Origin: Pedobacter cryoconitis
GTDB taxonomy: Bacteria; Bacteroidota; Bacteroidia; Sphingobacteriales; Sphingobacteriaceae
Length of the DNA stretch: 64,000 bases
Assembly: GCF_003259615.1 (NCBI RefSeq)
Contig: NZ_QLLR01000024.1
Coordinates: 1 to 64,000, forward strand
Reading direction: 5' to 3'
Below, in pieces: positions 31,341-41,846 of this stretch. Positions within the stretch are counted from its first letter, which is position 1. Every line of letters starts with the position of its first letter. The notes below the pieces were generated by a model. That model worked only from the letters and a program-made list of their open reading frames with translations. It had not been told where the DNA came from and ran no database searches. A program made the translations under genes and the position numbers.

Positions 31341-33248
31341 ATGTTTAACCGGTTCACACTCTCACGCTTAAGTACCTTACTCACAGTAATTCTCCTGCTT
31401 GTTATTAGTCCGGCTATTTATGCGCAGCAACCAGTCACCGTAAACGACAATATCAATCAGCACATCTTTAATTTTGGTGAGATAGAATGGTTAAAAGACA
31501 CCCAAAACAAGCTCAGCTTTGAGCAGATCAGCAGTAAAGATTTTGATCAGCATTTCATAAAAAGCATAAAAAGCACTCCGCAAACTACCGATCTGAAAGC
31601 AACCTATTGGTTTAGAATTAAGATTAAACACAATAGTAAAGCCAGCAAAAGATACCTGCTGGAGTTCTTCGATCAAACCATAGACCATGTAACCGCCTAT
31701 TTACCCCAAAAGGACGGACATTACAAAATCAAAGAATTCGGTGATCAATTCAACTTTGACCAGCGTGAACTTCACCATAAAAACTTCGAGCTGTACATCA
31801 ATAACGACAATGATGAAACACAGCTTTATTACTTCAAATTTAAATCCTCACAGATCTCTGATGCCATCATCGTACTCAGAAGCGTAGACTGGTTTATCTC
31901 TTACGCACTGGATGAATACTTTTATTTCGGCATATTCTATGGAATGATCCTGGTTTTTAGCTTCTATAACCTGATCATGTTTATCGCCATGCGGCAAAGA
32001 CAATACCTCTATTACGTACTGTATAATCTAAGCGTGGGTTTCTTTGAAATGAGTACAGACGGTATCGCCTACCAGTATTTATGGTCTTCCGCTACCGGAT
32101 GGAACCAGATTGCTTATGCCTTTGCCCTGTATGCAACCAGTATATTTGCCCTGCTGTTTACCAAAGAACTGCTCTTTGTGAAAGCTAATGCCCCGAAACT
32201 AAACAAGTTTATACTTTATATCATCAGCATCCGGACAGTCCTGTTTCTTTACAGCCTGATCATAGACCAGTCATTGCTTACCTATAAATTCCTCGAATTT
32301 ATTCCCCTTGCTGTAGCCTTCTATACCGGTATTTATATTTACAAACAAGGTTATAAGCCTGCCCGTTTCTTTGTTTTAGGCTATAGTTTTCTTTTTATCG
32401 GCTTTACCTTAAAATTCCTGATTATGCTGGGATTTGCCTGGCTAAACTTTGGGGTGATCAGCTATTACAGTCTGAGCTTCTGTTTTATTCTGGAAATGGT
32501 ATTTCTTTCCTTTGCTATTGGCGATAAACTGCGCATTCTGAAAACCAAGGAAGAAAAAGTACAGCGTCAGATGATCCATCAGATGGCAGAAAATGTAAAA
32601 CTGAAAGACACTCTAAACCAGCAACTGGAAACTAAAGTAGAAGAACGCACTAAAGAAGTATTTCATAAATCCCTAATTATTGAAGCTAAAAATGCGGAGC
32701 TGCTTGCAGTTAATGACAGGCTGCAGCAACAAGCAGAAGAAATATCCAGGATGAACATACTCCTGGAACAAGACAATCAGGAACTGCAAACCAATGTAGA
32801 AAAAGTAACCCGTGACCGCGTGATGTCTGCTGATGTTGATTTTGAAGAATTCAGTAAAATCTATCCCGACAAAGACAGCTGCAACCTGTTTCTGTCCGAA
32901 CTCAAATGGAAAGACGGTTATAGCTGCCGCAAATGTAAAAACACACATTTCTATAGCGGGCACATCACCTTTAGCAGAAGGTGCAGTAAATGCGGATATG
33001 AAGAATCTGTTACTGCTTATACCGTTTTTCAAAATACCCGTATCCCCATTAATAAAGCATTTTATATGATTTTCCTGATCTACTCCAGTAAAGGAAAAAT
33101 CTCTTCACACAAGCTCGCTGAAATACTGAATATCCGCCAAAGTACCTGCTGGACTTATGGTTCCAAGATCAAACTCCTGATGGAAGAAAGAAAAACAGTA
33201 CTAAAAAAGACCAGCAAAAACGGGTGGAGCCAGCTTGTTCTGGATTAA
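31341..33248 (+). CDS. 7TMR-DISM membrane receptor fused to an IS1595-type transposase zinc ribbon and HTH
   Basis: 635 aa in one uninterrupted frame. Residues 1-29 are a signal peptide. 30-185 match the 7TMR-DISM extracellular sensor (a beta sandwich often binding carbohydrate). 190-398 hold seven transmembrane helices. 400-492 form a coiled coil. The C-terminus (about 500-615) reads like the transposase zinc ribbon of IS1595 elements: FSKIYPDKDSCNLFLSELKW, Cys 529/532 and 548/551, SVTAYTVFQNTRIPINKAF, and a helix-turn-helix at ~584-615 (KLAEILNIRQSTCW). The protein ends 20 residues later with no DDE domain, so it cannot transpose. It is most simply a membrane-bound DNA-binding regulator for the sus locus downstream; that role is inference. 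Confidence 0.85.
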   Translation: MFNRFTLSRLSTLLTVILLLVISPAIYAQQPVTVNDNINQHIFNFGEIEWLKDTQNKLSFEQISSKDFDQHFIKSIKSTPQTTDLKATYWFRIKIKHNSKASKRYLLEFFDQTIDHVTAYLPQKDGHYKIKEFGDQFNFDQRELHHKNFELYINNDNDETQLYYFKFKSSQISDAIIVLRSVDWFISYALDEYFYFGIFYGMILVFSFYNLIMFIAMRQRQYLYYVLYNLSVGFFEMSTDGIAYQYLWSSATGWNQIAYAFALYATSIFALLFTKELLFVKANAPKLNKFILYIISIRTVLFLYSLIIDQSLLTYKFLEFIPLAVAFYTGIYIYKQGYKPARFFVLGYSFLFIGFTLKFLIMLGFAWLNFGVISYYSLSFCFILEMVFLSFAIGDKLRILKTKEEKVQRQMIHQMAENVKLKDTLNQQLETKVEERTKEVFHKSLIIEAKNAELLAVNDRLQQQAEEISRMNILLEQDNQELQTNVEKVTRDRVMSADVDFEEFSKIYPDKDSCNLFLSELKWKDGYSCRKCKNTHFYSGHITFSRRCSKCGYEESVTAYTVFQNTRIPINKAFYMIFLIYSSKGKISSHKLAEILNIRQSTCWTYGSKIKLLMEERKTVLKKTSKNGWSQLVLD

Positions 33249-33277: not shown

Positions 33278-33383
33278 GGTATCAGAGCGTATCGTTTATG
33301 CCGTACCTGGTATTGAATATCTTCTCCTATGCCCTGTATATCAGCCACAAACCCTTATTTACCCTACGGTATTGAAGCGTATC
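33278..33383. promoter_or_regulatory. Three spaced repeats upstream of susC
   Basis: GGTATCAGAGCGTATC (33278-33293) and GGTATTGAAGCGTATC (33368-33383) share 14 of 16 bases. A shorter copy GGTATTGAATATC lies at 33309-33321. The last full copy sits about 43 bases before the TATATTTG element, an activator-like position. These are the best candidate sites for a regulator of the locus. Confidence 0.55.
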
Positions 33384-33425
33384 AAATACTCCATAATTAA
33401 CTGTTCATCAGCTATTTATAAAAAA

Positions 33426-33433: not shown

Positions 33434-33505
33434 TTTAATATGTTGATTTTAACAGATATTAGCCCTTAACTTTAACAATCAAATACAAACCTAAATAAGC
33501 AAATC

Positions 33506-36500
33506 ATGACTAAAAATTTTACTCTTTTAATCATTTGTCTTTTATGCGGGATCTCTGTAGCCATAGCACAGAACATCAACATAAAAGGTGAAGTCAAAGA
33601 TCATCAGGGTCTGCCTTTACCGGGAGTCTCGGTTAAAGTCGATGGAACCAGCAACGGGGTGATGACTAATAAAGACGGTATTTACACGCTGTCTGCTCCA
33701 GGAAACGGAACACTTACTTTTTCATTTATAGGCTATAAAACGATTTCGGAGGCTATTAATAACAGAACCAATATCAATACTACACTGGCTGATTCAAACC
33801 AGGAACTGAATGAAGTAGTCGTTATAGGTTATGGCTCACAGAAAAAGAAAGACATTACTTCAGCGATCTCTACCATCAGTGTGAAAGATGTAAGCGCGCG
33901 CCCAATCATCAATACCTCTGAAGTTCTTGCAGGAAAAGCTCCCGGAGTACAGGTATTCAACGCATCAGGCGCACCAGGCGGTGGTAATTTCAGCGTAAGA
34001 ATACGCGGAGCATCTTCACCAAACGGCTCTGAACCGATTTACGTTGTAGACGGAGTTGTAGTAAGAAACACAGAAAGTATAGACCCTAACAATATCGAAT
34101 CAATCAGTGTACTGAAAGATGCCTCTGCTGCCGGAATCTATGGTTCATTAGGAGCCACCAATGGTGTCGTATTAATTACTACTAAAAAGGGAACTGCAGG
34201 ACAAACCAAGGTAGAAGTTAACATGTATGCAGGTAAACAGCAAATCATTAAAAAATTGGATATGCTGAATGCCGACCAGTACAAAGACCTGATCAATGAT
34301 GAGTATACCAATAAAGGACAGAATGTACCCGCATTCCCAGCTAATTTCACTGCCAATAACAACTGGCAGGACCTGACTTACCGTTCTGCAAACCAAAGTG
34401 GAATTAATGTAGGCGTATCCGGCGGTACCGACAAAGGAACCTTCTATTTAGGATTAGGCCGCTTACAACAAGACGGAATTGTATACGGTACTAACTTTAA
34501 ACGTTATTCTACCAACCTGAGCTTAGAACAAAAGCTGAAACCATGGTTATCTGTAGGAACTAATGTTGCTTACAACAGAACCGACGGCCGTACCGTGAAT
34601 GATAACCAGTCTGCTAACAGAGGAGGAACCATACTTGGTGCACTTTACGCTCCGCCTATCCTTCCAATCTTTAATTCAAATGGTAAATACCAGGCGAACA
34701 CAGATAACGTTTCTAACCCATTGGATGATATTTACAGTAATGAGAACCATTATGTAAAAAACAACTTACTGGGAAATGCACACGCCGAAATCACTTTACC
34801 ATTTAACATTAAGTACCGTTCACAATTAGGTATTTCATTAAACAACTATAACAACGATACCTTTACCAACCCGCTAACTAACCAGGGAGCAAGCCAGGTA
34901 AATGGTATAGGAACAAATACAGCCAATGAAACTTTCCGTTATACCTGGGATAACACCTTGACCTACTCTACAGTAATCAACGGAAAACACAACATTACTG
35001 CTGTAGTTGGAACGTCAGCTATCGAAGAAAAATATACCAGCAGCTATTTATACGGTACAGGTTTTCCAGCTGGAATAAAGACCTTAAATGCTGCAAGTGC
35101 GAACAAACAGATCTCTACTTTTAAAACAGACTGGACAAGTAATTCTTACTTTGGCCGTATCAACTACGGTTATGACGATAAGTACCTGTTAACCGCGTCA
35201 TTAAGAGCTGACGGATCATCCAGAGCAGGTATTAATAACCAGTGGGGATATTTTCCGGCAGTATCCGGAGCATGGCGTATCTCTAACGAAGACTTTTTGA
35301 AAGACAATACTGTTATCAAAGACCTAAAACTAAGAGCAGGTTATGGTGAAGTAGGTAATTTGCCCCAAACACTATACAATAGCTACAGCTCACTAGACCC
35401 TTCAGCCTATTTATTTGGCGGCAACAGTGCTTCAGGTTACAGACCAGCTAATCCATTTGGTAATCCAGATCTGAAATGGGAAAGTACTAAAGGATTAAAT
35501 ATTGGTTTTGATCTGTCTGTATTAAATGACAGAGTATCATTCAGTGCTGATTACTACGATAAAAAAACAACTAACTTCATTTTCCCGGTAACTTTCCCTA
35601 CTGCAATTTCGGGTAATGCAAATACTGGTTATTATAATCTACCGGGTAATATCTCGAACAAAGGGATTGAATTTTCAGTAACAGGAAGAATACTGGCTAA
35701 AACTGATTTCTCATGGACTGCTAACTTAAACGCATCCTTTAATAAAAATTCTGTAAATGGTATGCCACAATTAGTGGACAGTAAAGGAAATAATGTAGAC
35801 CAGACCTTTCCATTCGGTGGTATAGGATTTGGTGGTAATGGAAATAACACTAATCTGTCTATTGTTAAAAATGGTTTGCCATTAGGCGCATTTTATGGTT
35901 ATCAGTATACAGGTGTTGATCCAGCTAATGGAAATGCACTGTACAGAAAAGCAGATGGAACGATCACTGCAAAACCAGAAGCAGCAGACCAGACTTACCT
36001 GGGCAGCGGACTGCCAAAAGGAGTATATGGCTTTACCAATAGTTTTAACTACAAAAGCTTAAGCCTGGACATCTTAATTGATGCAGTTACCGGAAATAAA
36101 GTTTACAATGCGACAAGAGTAGAAACTGAATCTATGTCTTCTACAGCTAATGCAAGTGCAGCAGTATTAGATCGCTGGAGAAAACCAGGTGATATTACTG
36201 ATATTCCAGGTGCATTTTTTGGTGGTATAAACGCTGCGGGTACAACCAATACGCTTCCATCATCACGCTTTGTGGAGAATGGTTCATTTGTCCGTTTGAA
36301 ATCAATCACGTTAAGCTACAGGATTAAAAACAGCTTGTTTGATAAACAAGGTATACAGCTGACTGTGTATGCTACAGCTCAGAACCTATGGACCATTACC
36401 AAATACAAAGGCTATTACCCTGAGGTCAATACCTTTAGTTCAAGCTCTCAGCAAGATGGTAAACTTGGTGCACCAAGCTCTACTGCTGTGGGTATAGATT

Positions 36501-36556
36501 ACGGTACTTACCCGCAAACAAAAACATACACAGCAGGTCTGAATCTATCTTTTTAA
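33506..36556 (+). CDS. SusC/RagA-family TonB-linked outer-membrane transporter
   Basis: 1016 aa. Signal peptide to VAIAQ, CarboxypepD_reg domain (~25-100, GEVKDHQGLPLPGVSV), the SusC TonB-box motif LNEVVVIGYGSQKKKD (~108-123), plug with IRGASSPNGSEPIYVVDG, and a barrel ending in Phe. No STN (FecR-interacting) domain is present, so it is not controlled by an anti-sigma/ECF pair in the usual way. It imports oligosaccharides captured by the SusD lipoprotein encoded 22 bases downstream. It is the first gene of the utilisation locus. Confidence 0.95.
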   Translation: MTKNFTLLIICLLCGISVAIAQNINIKGEVKDHQGLPLPGVSVKVDGTSNGVMTNKDGIYTLSAPGNGTLTFSFIGYKTISEAINNRTNINTTLADSNQELNEVVVIGYGSQKKKDITSAISTISVKDVSARPIINTSEVLAGKAPGVQVFNASGAPGGGNFSVRIRGASSPNGSEPIYVVDGVVVRNTESIDPNNIESISVLKDASAAGIYGSLGATNGVVLITTKKGTAGQTKVEVNMYAGKQQIIKKLDMLNADQYKDLINDEYTNKGQNVPAFPANFTANNNWQDLTYRSANQSGINVGVSGGTDKGTFYLGLGRLQQDGIVYGTNFKRYSTNLSLEQKLKPWLSVGTNVAYNRTDGRTVNDNQSANRGGTILGALYAPPILPIFNSNGKYQANTDNVSNPLDDIYSNENHYVKNNLLGNAHAEITLPFNIKYRSQLGISLNNYNNDTFTNPLTNQGASQVNGIGTNTANETFRYTWDNTLTYSTVINGKHNITAVVGTSAIEEKYTSSYLYGTGFPAGIKTLNAASANKQISTFKTDWTSNSYFGRINYGYDDKYLLTASLRADGSSRAGINNQWGYFPAVSGAWRISNEDFLKDNTVIKDLKLRAGYGEVGNLPQTLYNSYSSLDPSAYLFGGNSASGYRPANPFGNPDLKWESTKGLNIGFDLSVLNDRVSFSADYYDKKTTNFIFPVTFPTAISGNANTGYYNLPGNISNKGIEFSVTGRILAKTDFSWTANLNASFNKNSVNGMPQLVDSKGNNVDQTFPFGGIGFGGNGNNTNLSIVKNGLPLGAFYGYQYTGVDPANGNALYRKADGTITAKPEAADQTYLGSGLPKGVYGFTNSFNYKSLSLDILIDAVTGNKVYNATRVETESMSSTANASAAVLDRWRKPGDITDIPGAFFGGINAAGTTNTLPSSRFVENGSFVRLKSITLSYRIKNSLFDKQGIQLTVYATAQNLWTITKYKGYYPEVNTFSSSSQQDGKLGAPSSTAVGIDYGTYPQTKTYTAGLNLSF

Positions 36557-36577: not shown

Positions 36578-38053
36578 ATGAACAACTATCATAAAATATT
36601 AACCATTGCAATGTGCGGCTCAATTGGCCTGCTCTGCTCTTGTAAAAAAAGCTTTTTAGACAAACAACCAATCTCACAAGGTACTGCCGGAACCTATTAT
36701 AAAACTGCAAGTGATGCCGAAGGTGGCCTTGTAGGCGTTTATCAGCAAGCCTTTTTAACCAATCAATACTGGGTTTGGGATTATATTACCAATGGTGATG
36801 CCCGTGCAGACAACTGTTACGCAGGTGGTGATAACCCTGACAACTTTGCAATTGATAACTTCCAGCTTACTCCACAAAACGGAAACGCGACCCGTAACTG
36901 GCAGAATTTATATCAGGACATCTATGCAGCGAATATAGTACTGGATTATGTCCCTAAAATTGCAGCAGAACAATTTGCAAATAACAGACAACAGGAGATT
37001 CTGGGTGAAGCTAAATTTATAAGAGCACTGGATTACTTCCAATTGGTAACTACCTACAATGATGTACCGCTGATTTTGTCAACTGTTGATTTTCCTGCTA
37101 AACCCAGCAGAAACGCAGCAACAGAAGTATATGCACAAATAGAGAAAGACCTGATAGACGCAGAAACAGCCTTACCACTTACCGCAGCTTCAGTTGGTCA
37201 TGCCACTAAAGGATCAGCACAAGCACTATTGGCTAAAGTATATGCACAAGAAGGAAAATATCAGCAGAGTCTGGACTATAGCAATAAAGTAATCAACTCA
37301 GGAAAATACGCATTGGTCCCTAACTTTGCTACTTTGTTTGATGGCACCAAGAATACCTCTGAATCTATATTTGAAATTCAGCACTCCTCTGCAAGTGGTT
37401 TTACCAGTTACAATGTTTCTTTATTCTTACCTGCAAAATTTGGCACTTACTCTTTCAATAAATTCAACCTTCCAACAAATGACCTGGTCAACCTGTATAA
37501 ATCTCAAAACGATAATATCCGTTTGAGCTCCTCAGTTTACCTGGCAACCGTTGGTACAGATGGTCTGGCTGCCGGAGATCCGATCCCAACACCTTATACT
37601 GCTGCCTATGGCACAATTCCATTCCTTTATAAATGGAAAACCAATATTTCACAATATGGAGGTGGTACAGACAACACTATTCTGCTGCGTTTAGCAGATA
37701 TTATCCTGCTAAAAGCTGAAGCACTGAACCAATTAGGTCAAACAGGAGCAGCAATTCCTTTAGTGAACCAGATCAGGGCCAGAGTTTCACTTGCACCAAT
37801 TACAGCAACTTCAAAAGATGATGTCGCATTGGCTATCCTGAATGAAAGAAGAATGGAATTAGCATTTGAAGGTAACCGCTGGAATGACCTTTTAAGATTC
37901 GGTAAACAATACACAATTGACCTGATGAACAAACAAACCGGTCCTGATGGAAAACCATTGAATTACAATGTAAGTCAGACTAAATTATTATTCCCGGTTC
38001 CATTTAATGAAATACAATTAGATGGGAATCTGACTCAGAACCCAGGTTACTAA
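36578..38053 (+). CDS. SusD/RagB-family nutrient-binding outer-membrane lipoprotein
   Basis: 491 aa, lipobox with Cys about residue 22 (LLCSCKKSFLD). The N-terminal SusD-like part (FLDKQPISQGTAGTYYKT, NLYQDIYAANIVLD) contains tetratricopeptide-like helices (LGEAKFIRALDYFQLV), and the C-terminal RagB/SusD part ends with AILNERRMELAFEGNRWNDL. It caps the SusC barrel and binds glycan at the cell surface. It directly follows susC and is followed by an intrinsic terminator. Confidence 0.95.
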   Translation: MNNYHKILTIAMCGSIGLLCSCKKSFLDKQPISQGTAGTYYKTASDAEGGLVGVYQQAFLTNQYWVWDYITNGDARADNCYAGGDNPDNFAIDNFQLTPQNGNATRNWQNLYQDIYAANIVLDYVPKIAAEQFANNRQQEILGEAKFIRALDYFQLVTTYNDVPLILSTVDFPAKPSRNAATEVYAQIEKDLIDAETALPLTAASVGHATKGSAQALLAKVYAQEGKYQQSLDYSNKVINSGKYALVPNFATLFDGTKNTSESIFEIQHSSASGFTSYNVSLFLPAKFGTYSFNKFNLPTNDLVNLYKSQNDNIRLSSSVYLATVGTDGLAAGDPIPTPYTAAYGTIPFLYKWKTNISQYGGGTDNTILLRLADIILLKAEALNQLGQTGAAIPLVNQIRARVSLAPITATSKDDVALAILNERRMELAFEGNRWNDLLRFGKQYTIDLMNKQTGPDGKPLNYNVSQTKLLFPVPFNEIQLDGNLTQNPGY

Positions 38054-38124: not shown

Positions 38125-40425
38125 ATGTATTTAAGAAAACCCCTCTCAGTTCTTTTGTTAATGCTCTCTTACGGAATAGTCGATGCACAAACAAAGAATA
38201 ATGCGAAAGTAGAAAGCCTGCTTCAGAAAATGACCCTGGAAGAAAAGGTAGGTCAGATGGCACAGATCACGCTCGACGTTATCGGAACCGGTAAAGATCG
38301 TTTTACCAGTGATGAACCGTTTGCACTGGATCAAAAAGCAATGGAAAAAGCACTGATTCAGTATAAACTGGGCTCAGTATTAAATACATCAAACAACAGG
38401 GCAAGAACACCTAAAGTCTGGTATGAAATTATCAGTAAGATCCAGCAAACTGCCATGAAAGGAACCAAAAATGGTATTCCTGTGATCTATGGTATTGATG
38501 CTATTCACGGTGAAACTTATACCGCAGGTGCAACCATGTTCCCGCAGCAAATCGGACAAGCAGCAACTTTCAACAGAAGCCTTGTTCGCAGAGGAGCTGA
38601 GATTACTGCTTATGAAACCCGTGCAAGCTCTATTCCATGGGCATTTTCTCCTTTATTGGATTTAGGTGCTGATCCCCGCTTCCCTCGTCAATGGGAAAGT
38701 TTCGGAGAAGATCCTTATTTAGTAAGCGAAATGGGTGTTCAGGCTGTAAAAGGTCTGGAAGGAGACAACAATGATGTCTCTAATCCATACCGTGTAGCCT
38801 CTTCCATTAAACACTTTTTAGGTTACCAAGTACCAATTTCAGGTAAAGACAGAACCCCTGCCTATATTTCTGACCAGGCCTTAAGAGAATATCACTTACC
38901 ATCTTTCAGAGCAGCTATTCAGGCAGGTGCGAAAACTATCATGATTAACTCAGGAATTATTAATGGTGTTCCGGTTCATGCTAACTATAACCTGATCACT
39001 AAATTGTTAAAAGAAGAATTAGGTTTCAAAGGACTGGCGGTTACAGATTGGGGTGATATTGAAAACCTTTACAAAAGAGATCACGTAGCAAAAGATAATA
39101 AGGATGCCGTAAGGATTGCTATTAATGCAGGTATTGACATGTCAATGGTTGCTTATAACTATGAGCCTTTTTGTGATGATTTGATTGCTTTAGTTAAAGA
39201 AGGTAAAGTAAAAGAAAGCCGTATCGATGATGCAGTAAGAAGAATCTTACAGGTAAAATTTGATTTAGATCTTTTCAACAAGCCAACAACCAACCCTAAA
39301 GACTATCCTAAGTTTGGCAGTAAAGAATTTGAGCTGGCTTCTTACCAAGCAGCAGCAGAATCTATTACCTTGTTAAAAAATACAGATCAGGCTTTACCAT
39401 TGAACAAAGGAGTGAAAATTTTGGTTACTGGCCCTAACGCAAATTCAATGAGAACTTTGAATGGTGCATGGACTTACTCATGGCAGGGAGAAAAAGTAGA
39501 AGAATTCGCCGCAAAATATAATACGATCCTGAAAGCTTTAGAAAATAAAGCCGGCAAGCAAAACGTGACCTATGTACCGGGTGTGAGCTATAAAATGGAT
39601 GGCAAATACTTTGAAGAATATGCAGATCAGTTAGACGCAGCAATTGCCGCAGCTAAAGATGTGGATGTAGTTGTTTTATGTTTAGGAGAGAACTCTTACA
39701 CAGAAACCCCAGGTAACTTAAGTGACCTTTATCTTTCAGATCTTCAGACAGAGCTTGCGCAAAAACTTGCGGCTACAGGTAAAAAGATCATTTTAGTATT
39801 GAATGAAGGCCGCCCGAGAGTGATCTCTAAATTTGAGAAAAAAATGAGTGCAGTCGTACAGAGTTACCTGCCTGGTAATTTTGGTGGCGATGCCATTGCT
39901 GACGTACTATTAGGTACAGTAAACCCATCAGGTAAATTACCTTACACTTACCCGCAATATCCAAATGCCTTGTTTACTTATTACCATAAACCATCTGAAG
40001 CACGTTCTACTACAGAAGGTGTTTATAACTACGATGCAGATTATAACCCGCAGTACGTTTTCGGATTTGGTTTAAGTTATACCACGTTCAAATACAGTCC
40101 AATTAAATTAAGTACAGCTGCTTTGAAAAAAGGAGAAACTTTAACCGTTTCTGTAGAGGTAACCAATACTGGTAAAGTTGCAGGTAAGGAAAGTGTGTTG
40201 TTATTTACCTCAGACCTGGTAGCTACTTTAGTTAGCCCTGACGTGAAACGTTTAAGAGGGTTTGATAAAATAGAATTAAAAGCCGGTGAAACTAAAACAG
40301 TAACTTTTAAGATTACTGCAGATGATCTAGGCTTTATTAATCCAGAAGGCCAGAAAGTAACTGAAGACGGAGACTTTACCGTACAAATTGCTGATCAGAA
40401 AATCAATTTCACTTACAATCAATAA
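38125..40425 (+). CDS. bglX: Glycoside hydrolase family 3 beta-glucosidase (BglX-like)
   Basis: 766 aa, exported (signal peptide to VDAQ). GH3 N-terminal barrel with KVGQMAQITLD, IPVIYGIDAIHG, FSPLLDLGADPRFPRQWE, SSIKHFLGYQ and the nucleophile Asp 308 in LAVTDWGD. A C-terminal alpha/beta sandwich and a fibronectin-III-like domain (~660-766) follow. It should release glucose from the ends of short beta-glucans in the periplasm. Its stop overlaps the GH30 start by one base, giving translational coupling. Confidence 0.94.
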   Translation: MYLRKPLSVLLLMLSYGIVDAQTKNNAKVESLLQKMTLEEKVGQMAQITLDVIGTGKDRFTSDEPFALDQKAMEKALIQYKLGSVLNTSNNRARTPKVWYEIISKIQQTAMKGTKNGIPVIYGIDAIHGETYTAGATMFPQQIGQAATFNRSLVRRGAEITAYETRASSIPWAFSPLLDLGADPRFPRQWESFGEDPYLVSEMGVQAVKGLEGDNNDVSNPYRVASSIKHFLGYQVPISGKDRTPAYISDQALREYHLPSFRAAIQAGAKTIMINSGIINGVPVHANYNLITKLLKEELGFKGLAVTDWGDIENLYKRDHVAKDNKDAVRIAINAGIDMSMVAYNYEPFCDDLIALVKEGKVKESRIDDAVRRILQVKFDLDLFNKPTTNPKDYPKFGSKEFELASYQAAAESITLLKNTDQALPLNKGVKILVTGPNANSMRTLNGAWTYSWQGEKVEEFAAKYNTILKALENKAGKQNVTYVPGVSYKMDGKYFEEYADQLDAAIAAAKDVDVVVLCLGENSYTETPGNLSDLYLSDLQTELAQKLAATGKKIILVLNEGRPRVISKFEKKMSAVVQSYLPGNFGGDAIADVLLGTVNPSGKLPYTYPQYPNALFTYYHKPSEARSTTEGVYNYDADYNPQYVFGFGLSYTTFKYSPIKLSTAALKKGETLTVSVEVTNTGKVAGKESVLLFTSDLVATLVSPDVKRLRGFDKIELKAGETKTVTFKITADDLGFINPEGQKVTEDGDFTVQIADQKINFTYNQ

Positions 40426-41846
40426 TGATGAAGAAGAATATCCTATTTGCTTTTGCGATTGCGCTATCAGCGTGTTCAGCAAAAAGAACAGCAACAGATC
40501 CTAACCGGTCTGCTGCTGCTAACAGTGAAGTTAAATACTGGCTCACTACAGGTGATCAATCAGCCTTATTACAAGAACAGTCAACGACTTTAAAATTTGG
40601 TACCGCTCAATCTGCCAATCCTGTAATTAGTGTTGATGAAACACAAAAATTTCAAACTATTGATGGTTTTGGTTACACTTTAACCGGCGGCAGTGCCAGC
40701 TTAATCAATGCGTTGGATGAAAAGACTAAAGATGCCTTATTGCAGGAACTGTTCTCTACAAAGAAAAACAGTATCGGCGTAAGTTACCTGAGGATCAGTA
40801 TCGGCGCTTCAGATCTGAGTGCAGATAACTTTACTTACAATGAATTACCTGCCGGACAGACTGATATTAATCAGGATAAGTTCTCTATGGCTAAAGAAAT
40901 GACAGATTTAGTACCTATCCTGAAAAAGATCCTGGCTATTAACCCTGACCTAAAAATCTTAGGTTCTCCATGGACTGCTCCTACCTGGATGAAAACGAAC
41001 CATAGCTTTAAAGGCGGAAGTCTGAAACCAGAATACTACGAATCTTATTCAAAATACCTGGTGAAATATATTCATGCGATGAAAGCTCAGGGAATTACAA
41101 TTGATGCAATCACGATTCAGAATGAGCCTTTACATCCTGGGAATGTTCCAAGTATGTATATGGAAGCAAAAGATCAGGCTATGTTCATTAAATCTGCTTT
41201 AGGCCCTGTATTTAAAGCTGCTGGTGTTAAAACAAAGATTATCATTTACGATCATAACGCAGATCGCCCGGATTATCCGATTACTATTCTGGATGACCCA
41301 GAGGCAAAACAATACGTTGATGGATCTGCTTTCCACTTATACGGCGGTCAGATCACAACATTGTCTAAAGTTCATGAAGCACATCCGGACAAAAACCTGT
41401 ACTTCACAGAACAATGGGTTGGCGGACCGGGTAAATTTGATGAGGAGCTAAAGTGGCATGTCTCTACTTTAATTATCGGAGCAACCCGTAATTGGAGCAG
41501 AAATGTTTTAGAGTGGAATTTAGCCGCTGACCCACTATATGGCCCACATACTGTAGGCGGATGTAAAAATTGCTTAGGGGCGATTACTGTAGCTCCTGAG
41601 GTTACAAAAAACGTAGCTTATTACATTATTGGCCATGCGTCGAAATTTGTAAGACCAGGATCTTACAGAATCGGTTCTAACATTACTGACAATTTAGAAA
41701 ACGTAGCCTTCAGGACTCCGGATGGAAAAACTGCACTGATCGTTGTCAATGGAAACACCGCTGAAAAAACCTTTAACATTCAATATAAAGGAAAAACAGT
41801 AAAAACTTCATTGCCAGCAGGTGCTGTTGCAACTTATGTCTGGTAG
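40425..41846 (+). CDS. Glycoside hydrolase family 30 glucanase lipoprotein
   Basis: 473 aa. Lipobox with Cys 17 (ALSAC), so it is surface or periplasmic membrane-anchored. GH30 barrel: QTIDGFGYTLTGGSA, YLRISIGASDLS, SPWTAPTWMK, acid/base Glu 234 in TIQNEPL and nucleophile Glu 329 in LYFTEQW, then a C-terminal beta sandwich. The sequence is nearer to bacterial glucosylceramidase/endo-beta-1,6-glucanases (subfamily 3-like) than to xylanases. With the GH3 it suggests beta-1,6-glucan breakdown. Subfamily is inferred. Confidence 0.9.
   Translation: MMKKNILFAFAIALSACSAKRTATDPNRSAAANSEVKYWLTTGDQSALLQEQSTTLKFGTAQSANPVISVDETQKFQTIDGFGYTLTGGSASLINALDEKTKDALLQELFSTKKNSIGVSYLRISIGASDLSADNFTYNELPAGQTDINQDKFSMAKEMTDLVPILKKILAINPDLKILGSPWTAPTWMKTNHSFKGGSLKPEYYESYSKYLVKYIHAMKAQGITIDAITIQNEPLHPGNVPSMYMEAKDQAMFIKSALGPVFKAAGVKTKIIIYDHNADRPDYPITILDDPEAKQYVDGSAFHLYGGQITTLSKVHEAHPDKNLYFTEQWVGGPGKFDEELKWHVSTLIIGATRNWSRNVLEWNLAADPLYGPHTVGGCKNCLGAITVAPEVTKNVAYYIIGHASKFVRPGSYRIGSNITDNLENVAFRTPDGKTALIVVNGNTAEKTFNIQYKGKTVKTSLPAGAVATYVW

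Follow-up and report, generated by a model that had tools for sequence, protein, structure and literature searches.

Architecture of the receptor

What does a membrane receptor that ends like a transposase do in front of a susC-susD locus? The question is raised by one open reading frame in the window, the whole 64,000-nucleotide stretch of Pedobacter cryoconitis DNA analyzed here. The earlier note had claimed that a transposase module was recruited as the output of a membrane one-component regulator, probably of SusCD, and as far as sequence comparison can tell this is supported by homology, gene neighbourhood and a paired motif. The gene and the domains of its product are as follows.

31341..33248, + strand: receptor gene, open reading frame from ATG at 31341 to TAA at 33248, 635 aa
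31479..31871, + strand: 7TMR-DISMED2 sensor domain, residues 47-177 (Pfam PF07696, 9e-28)
31914..32528, + strand: 7TMR-DISM_7TM membrane domain, residues 192-396 (Pfam PF07695, 2.6e-41; membrane helices in the AlphaFold model)
32529..32822, + strand: helical linker, long and probably a coiled coil, at about residues 397-494 (AlphaFold, low confidence around 447-470)
32823..33245, + strand: transposase-derived output module, about residues 495-635, with a four-Cys zinc ribbon and a helix-turn-helix (HTH)

The protein thus reads, in order, signal peptide, DISMED2 sensor, 7TM domain, coiled coil, and IS1595-type zinc ribbon and HTH. An AlphaFold model built on an alignment of 30 homologues (pLDDT 80) has a beta-sandwich at residues 40-181, membrane helices from 182 to ~397, a long helix to 447, a second helix at 464-494 and a small module at 501-633; the helical linker weakly matches coiled-coil proteins. 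With the frame open, both Pfam domains detected and the model in agreement, the signal peptide, 7TMR-DISM sensor and seven helices described previously all hold. Pfam and the model place an extracytoplasmic DISMED domain before a 7TM domain, the arrangement of 7TMR-DISM receptors, and the best PDB match of the sensor is that of RetS (3jyb, E 6e-6). The receptor resembles RetS and LadS (PF07695/PF07696) in its DISMED2 sensor, seven helices and cytoplasmic C-terminal output, but their type of output is a kinase, cyclase or GGDEF domain, whereas here it is a transposase-derived DNA-binding module. Pfam detected none of the domains of HTCS or SusR regulators (histidine kinase with AraC HTH, SusR-type domains) in the receptor.

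The output module and IS1595 transposases

The zinc ribbon of the module is formed by Cys 529, 532, 548 and 551. Zn_ribbon_IS1595 (PF12760) matches residues 510-553 with an E value of 1.9e-5, at 25.0 bits against a Pfam cut-off of 25.4, a cut-off that several divergent homologous receptors exceed. The NCBIfam IS1595 transposase model aligns residues 565-618 with its positions 1-55 of 215 only, which is the HTH end. The DDE catalytic domain (PF12762) was not found in the receptor by Pfam, and the protein stops after the HTH, so that the earlier description of an IS1595 zinc ribbon and HTH lacking a DDE core is borne out. Searched against 395 Bacteroidota genomes, a profile of the module matched 7TM receptors in other families as well as transposases of ~300-345 aa, the latter with a best E value of about 6e-37; PF12762 was present in 3/3 of the matched transposases checked. 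Homology to these transposases spans about 120 residues of zinc ribbon and HTH, and the C-terminus is in this respect what had been claimed, a homologue of IS1595 DNA-binding regions by Pfam, NCBIfam and the module profile alike. IS1595 transposases (PF12760 plus PF12762) share the zinc ribbon and HTH with the receptor, which differs from them in lacking DDE and in being fused to a membrane receptor.

Across 112 homologues the last third of the receptor is more conserved than the sensor, and conservation is 97% or more at C529, C532, C548 and C551 as well as through most of the HTH core GKISSHKL..IRQSTCW. Modelled alone, the module reached a pLDDT of 83.7. A Foldseek search of the PDB with the module returned weak HTH-type matches with no convincing solved relative, and nothing of note came from searching PDB sequences with a profile. 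Stand-alone proteins of 137-185 aa at three loci (L130, L134 and L143) also match the module profile and are possibly further domesticated modules; PF12760 was confirmed, and the DDE domain not detected, in L130 and L134.

Gene neighbourhood

The receptor gene is followed by SusC, SusD, GH3 and GH30 genes in that order.

33506..36556, + strand: susC-like TonB-dependent receptor
36578..38053, + strand: susD-like lipoprotein
38125..40425, + strand: GH3 glycosidase
40425..41846, + strand: GH30 glycosidase, best solved relative 5ngk

susC starts 257 bases past the receptor gene, the distance given in the earlier note. We take 5ngk to be the endo-1,6-beta-glucanase BT3312, and the target is best read as a beta-1,6-glucan-type PUL. 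The same cargo of SusCD, GH30 and GH3 is found in the PUL BT3309-BT3314, where the regulator is of the SusR type (PMC5481569). On genome contigs, a GH30 gene lies within 10 kb of the receptor in 78/80 relatives, for which chance would give about 1%, and susC directly follows the receptor in 49 of the 80; the P. cryoconitis genome (6.08 Mb) has three GH30 genes. Divergent receptors of other families likewise stand before susC-susD, and the expectation that homologues neighbour sus loci is thereby confirmed. Like SusR-type, HTCS (Reg_prop/Y_Y_Y) and ECF/anti-sigma PUL regulators, the receptor adjoins susC-susD and glycosidase genes, but the sensors and DNA-binding domains of those regulators come from other families. 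No standard PUL regulator was detected among the other neighbours tested in the window, in agreement with the earlier claim that the usual regulators are absent.

A candidate operator between receptor and susC

The gap between the receptor gene and susC contains two pairs of conserved elements and a likely promoter.

33278..33293, + strand: candidate operator site A1, GGTATCAGAGCGTATC
33334..33344, + strand: conserved element B1, CTGTATATCAG
33368..33383, + strand: candidate operator site A2, GGTATTGAAGCGTATC, 90 bp after A1
33401..33411, + strand: conserved element B2, CTGTTCATCAG
33443..33474, + strand: likely promoter of the general Bacteroidota consensus, TTG at 33443 and TAACTTTA at 33467-33474

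A k-mer count of the receptor-susC gaps of 50 loci found AGCGTATC in 44 of them; in shuffled sets, 8-mers reached 16 at most. When the 50 orthologous gaps were scanned for paired sites with up to three mismatches allowed, nearly all held two direct copies of the consensus GGTAYnnnAGCGTATC, 90-92 bp apart. The B elements read CTGnnnATCAG, and one follows each A site. Judged by sequence, conserved operator-like sites thus precede the PUL, as they do for PUL regulators, and this paired motif beside the receptor gene is independent evidence for a DNA-binding output. A second site pair was found in 4 orthologues whose susD-GH3 gap is longer than 260 bp, within that gap. The idea that GH3/GH30 genes behind a long gap always have sites of their own was rejected (4/22 such loci; 0/27 for short gaps).

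Specificity of the paired sites

In the P. cryoconitis genome the 16-mer is confined to two places, A1 and A2, and its reversed control does not occur. A looser paired core was found at two loci only (reversed control, one match): the receptor-susC gap, and a site at C8:202534-202627 in front of a PL14-like lyase gene and a second receptor of the same architecture.

G000:C8:199549-201372, - strand: paralogous receptor behind the lyase gene, 53% identical to the main receptor

These two receptor genes are the only ones in the genome with the full module, and each adjoins one paired-core locus. Among 83 paired cores listed from 61 receptor-bearing genomes, 29 are no more than 5 kb from a receptor, where 0.22 would be expected, and 24 of the 83 are directly downstream of a receptor on the same strand; many of the remaining matches share one sequence that resembles a conserved coding region.

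Since orthologous gaps have a common ancestry, loci that were not used to find the motif provide the stronger test. In 31 Mucilaginibacter-type loci the core AAGCGTATCA occurs at 34 sites, most of them preceding GH30 genes and not susC; permuted cores gave 1.07. Paralogous and divergent loci gave 13 core sites against 0.66. The AAGCGTATC core is absent from the gaps of f8-family receptors (L155-L159), and each gap of the f9 receptors (L152-L154) holds a single looser GTGTG-AAGYGTATA site; either the motif is not shared by all receptors or its recognition has changed. A search of the divergent f8 and f9 loci for direct repeats of 78-103 bp found nothing above shuffles in f8. In the nearest IS1595 element copies examined, exact AAGCGTATC was likewise absent; these copies matched it only with one mismatch, and they showed no clear terminal repeats similar to the operator. 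Separately, GCAAnCGnTTnC elements resembling LacI-type operators occur in the receptor-susC gaps of L155, L156, L157 and L159 (f8), L152 and L161.

Natural exchanges of sensor and output

Two single loci have exchanged one half of the architecture.

L117:9089-10813: LuxR-type HTH as the output of the same 7TM sensor
L115:10109-13345, - strand: same IS1595-derived module, here fused to an HTCS-type Reg_prop/Y_Y_Y beta-propeller sensor

The L117 receptor stands before SusC, SusD, GH16 and GH30 genes, and its intergenic region has no site pair; a search for further LuxR-output versions returned none beyond this locus. The L115 protein is encoded near chondroitinase-B/PL6-type and PL14-like lyase genes. 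Both the output swap and the sensor swap fit an exchangeable DNA-binding output. The L117 locus also bears on the alternative that the module is a zinc-stabilized protein-interaction or sensor domain which does not bind DNA, another regulator using the paired sites. Such a role would accommodate the f8 receptors, which keep the module without the core motif, but it has to contend with a module that sits where L117 has its LuxR HTH, with an HTH region that few other parts of the receptor match in conservation, with a site pair that tracks the receptor even to paralogues with other target genes, and with tested neighbours in which no other regulator was found. We consider it unlikely.

Proposed mechanism

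The reading we prefer, and consider very likely, is that the receptor is a transmembrane one-component regulator that senses a glycan product and activates susC-susD-GH3-GH30 through the paired A sites. The periplasmic DISMED2 domain would respond to a glycan breakdown product, most likely a beta-1,6-gluco-oligosaccharide, and the seven helices and coiled coil would relay the change to a cytoplasmic part that is predicted to dimerize. The IS1595-derived zinc ribbon and HTH may then bind the A sites, together with element B, at 33278-33411 ahead of the susC promoter, and binding would switch the genes on rather than off. The opposite sign, a membrane-tethered repressor that occupies the paired sites until glycan releases it, seems quite improbable: although the position of a site is by itself no proof of activation, the likely -33/-7 promoter is not covered by the A and B elements, which are placed upstream of it in an activator-like layout, and the known local PUL regulators are mostly activators.

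Distribution and origin

The architecture is kept in more than 100 loci from several Bacteroidota families. All 34 receptor modules fall into a single clade of the maximum-likelihood tree (support 98/91, 97% of bootstrap trees), and this clade adjoins Bacteroidota IS1595 transposases of the G357 type. A chance fusion or decaying IS1595 insertion in a 7TM receptor gene, devoid of function, could account for a module that stops just before the transposase DDE domain, but it is refuted by strong residue conservation over so many loci and a single module clade, and is hardly credible. The single clade instead suggests that the family arose by one host-transposase fusion event; read from an unrooted tree, the direction was presumably from transposase to receptor. 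Taken with the sensor swaps, the receptors likely form a widespread and hitherto undescribed family of PUL regulators in Bacteroidota that began with one fusion of sensor and transposase module, later exchanged sensors, and uses tandem sites at a fixed distance.

The full-text literature searched, with most subscription journals and preprints outside its scope, contained no description of this architecture. The DNA-binding domain of the ChiS family is an output on membrane sensors that include 7TMR-DISM proteins (PMC8092284). The receptor resembles these in placing a DNA-binding output on a membrane sensor, but the domain is a different one, that of ChiS being a cryptic HTH variant. To our knowledge the ChiS-family domain has no zinc ribbon or transposase homology. 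Eukaryotes offer well-known examples of transcription factors made by host-transposase fusion, but we know of few descriptions from bacteria. Here sequence supplies much of the case, from donor family, single clade and conserved residues to the swaps of input and of output and the predicted operator. In Pedobacter, Mucilaginibacter, Chitinophaga and relatives, the family provides a candidate regulator of GH30/GH3 glucan loci, and it looks like an undescribed set of switches with which Pedobacter-like soil bacteria eat fungal-type glucans. One receptor from a contig labelled Beijerinckiaceae (L103) groups with Chitinophagaceae in the tree, and the contig is probably misbinned.
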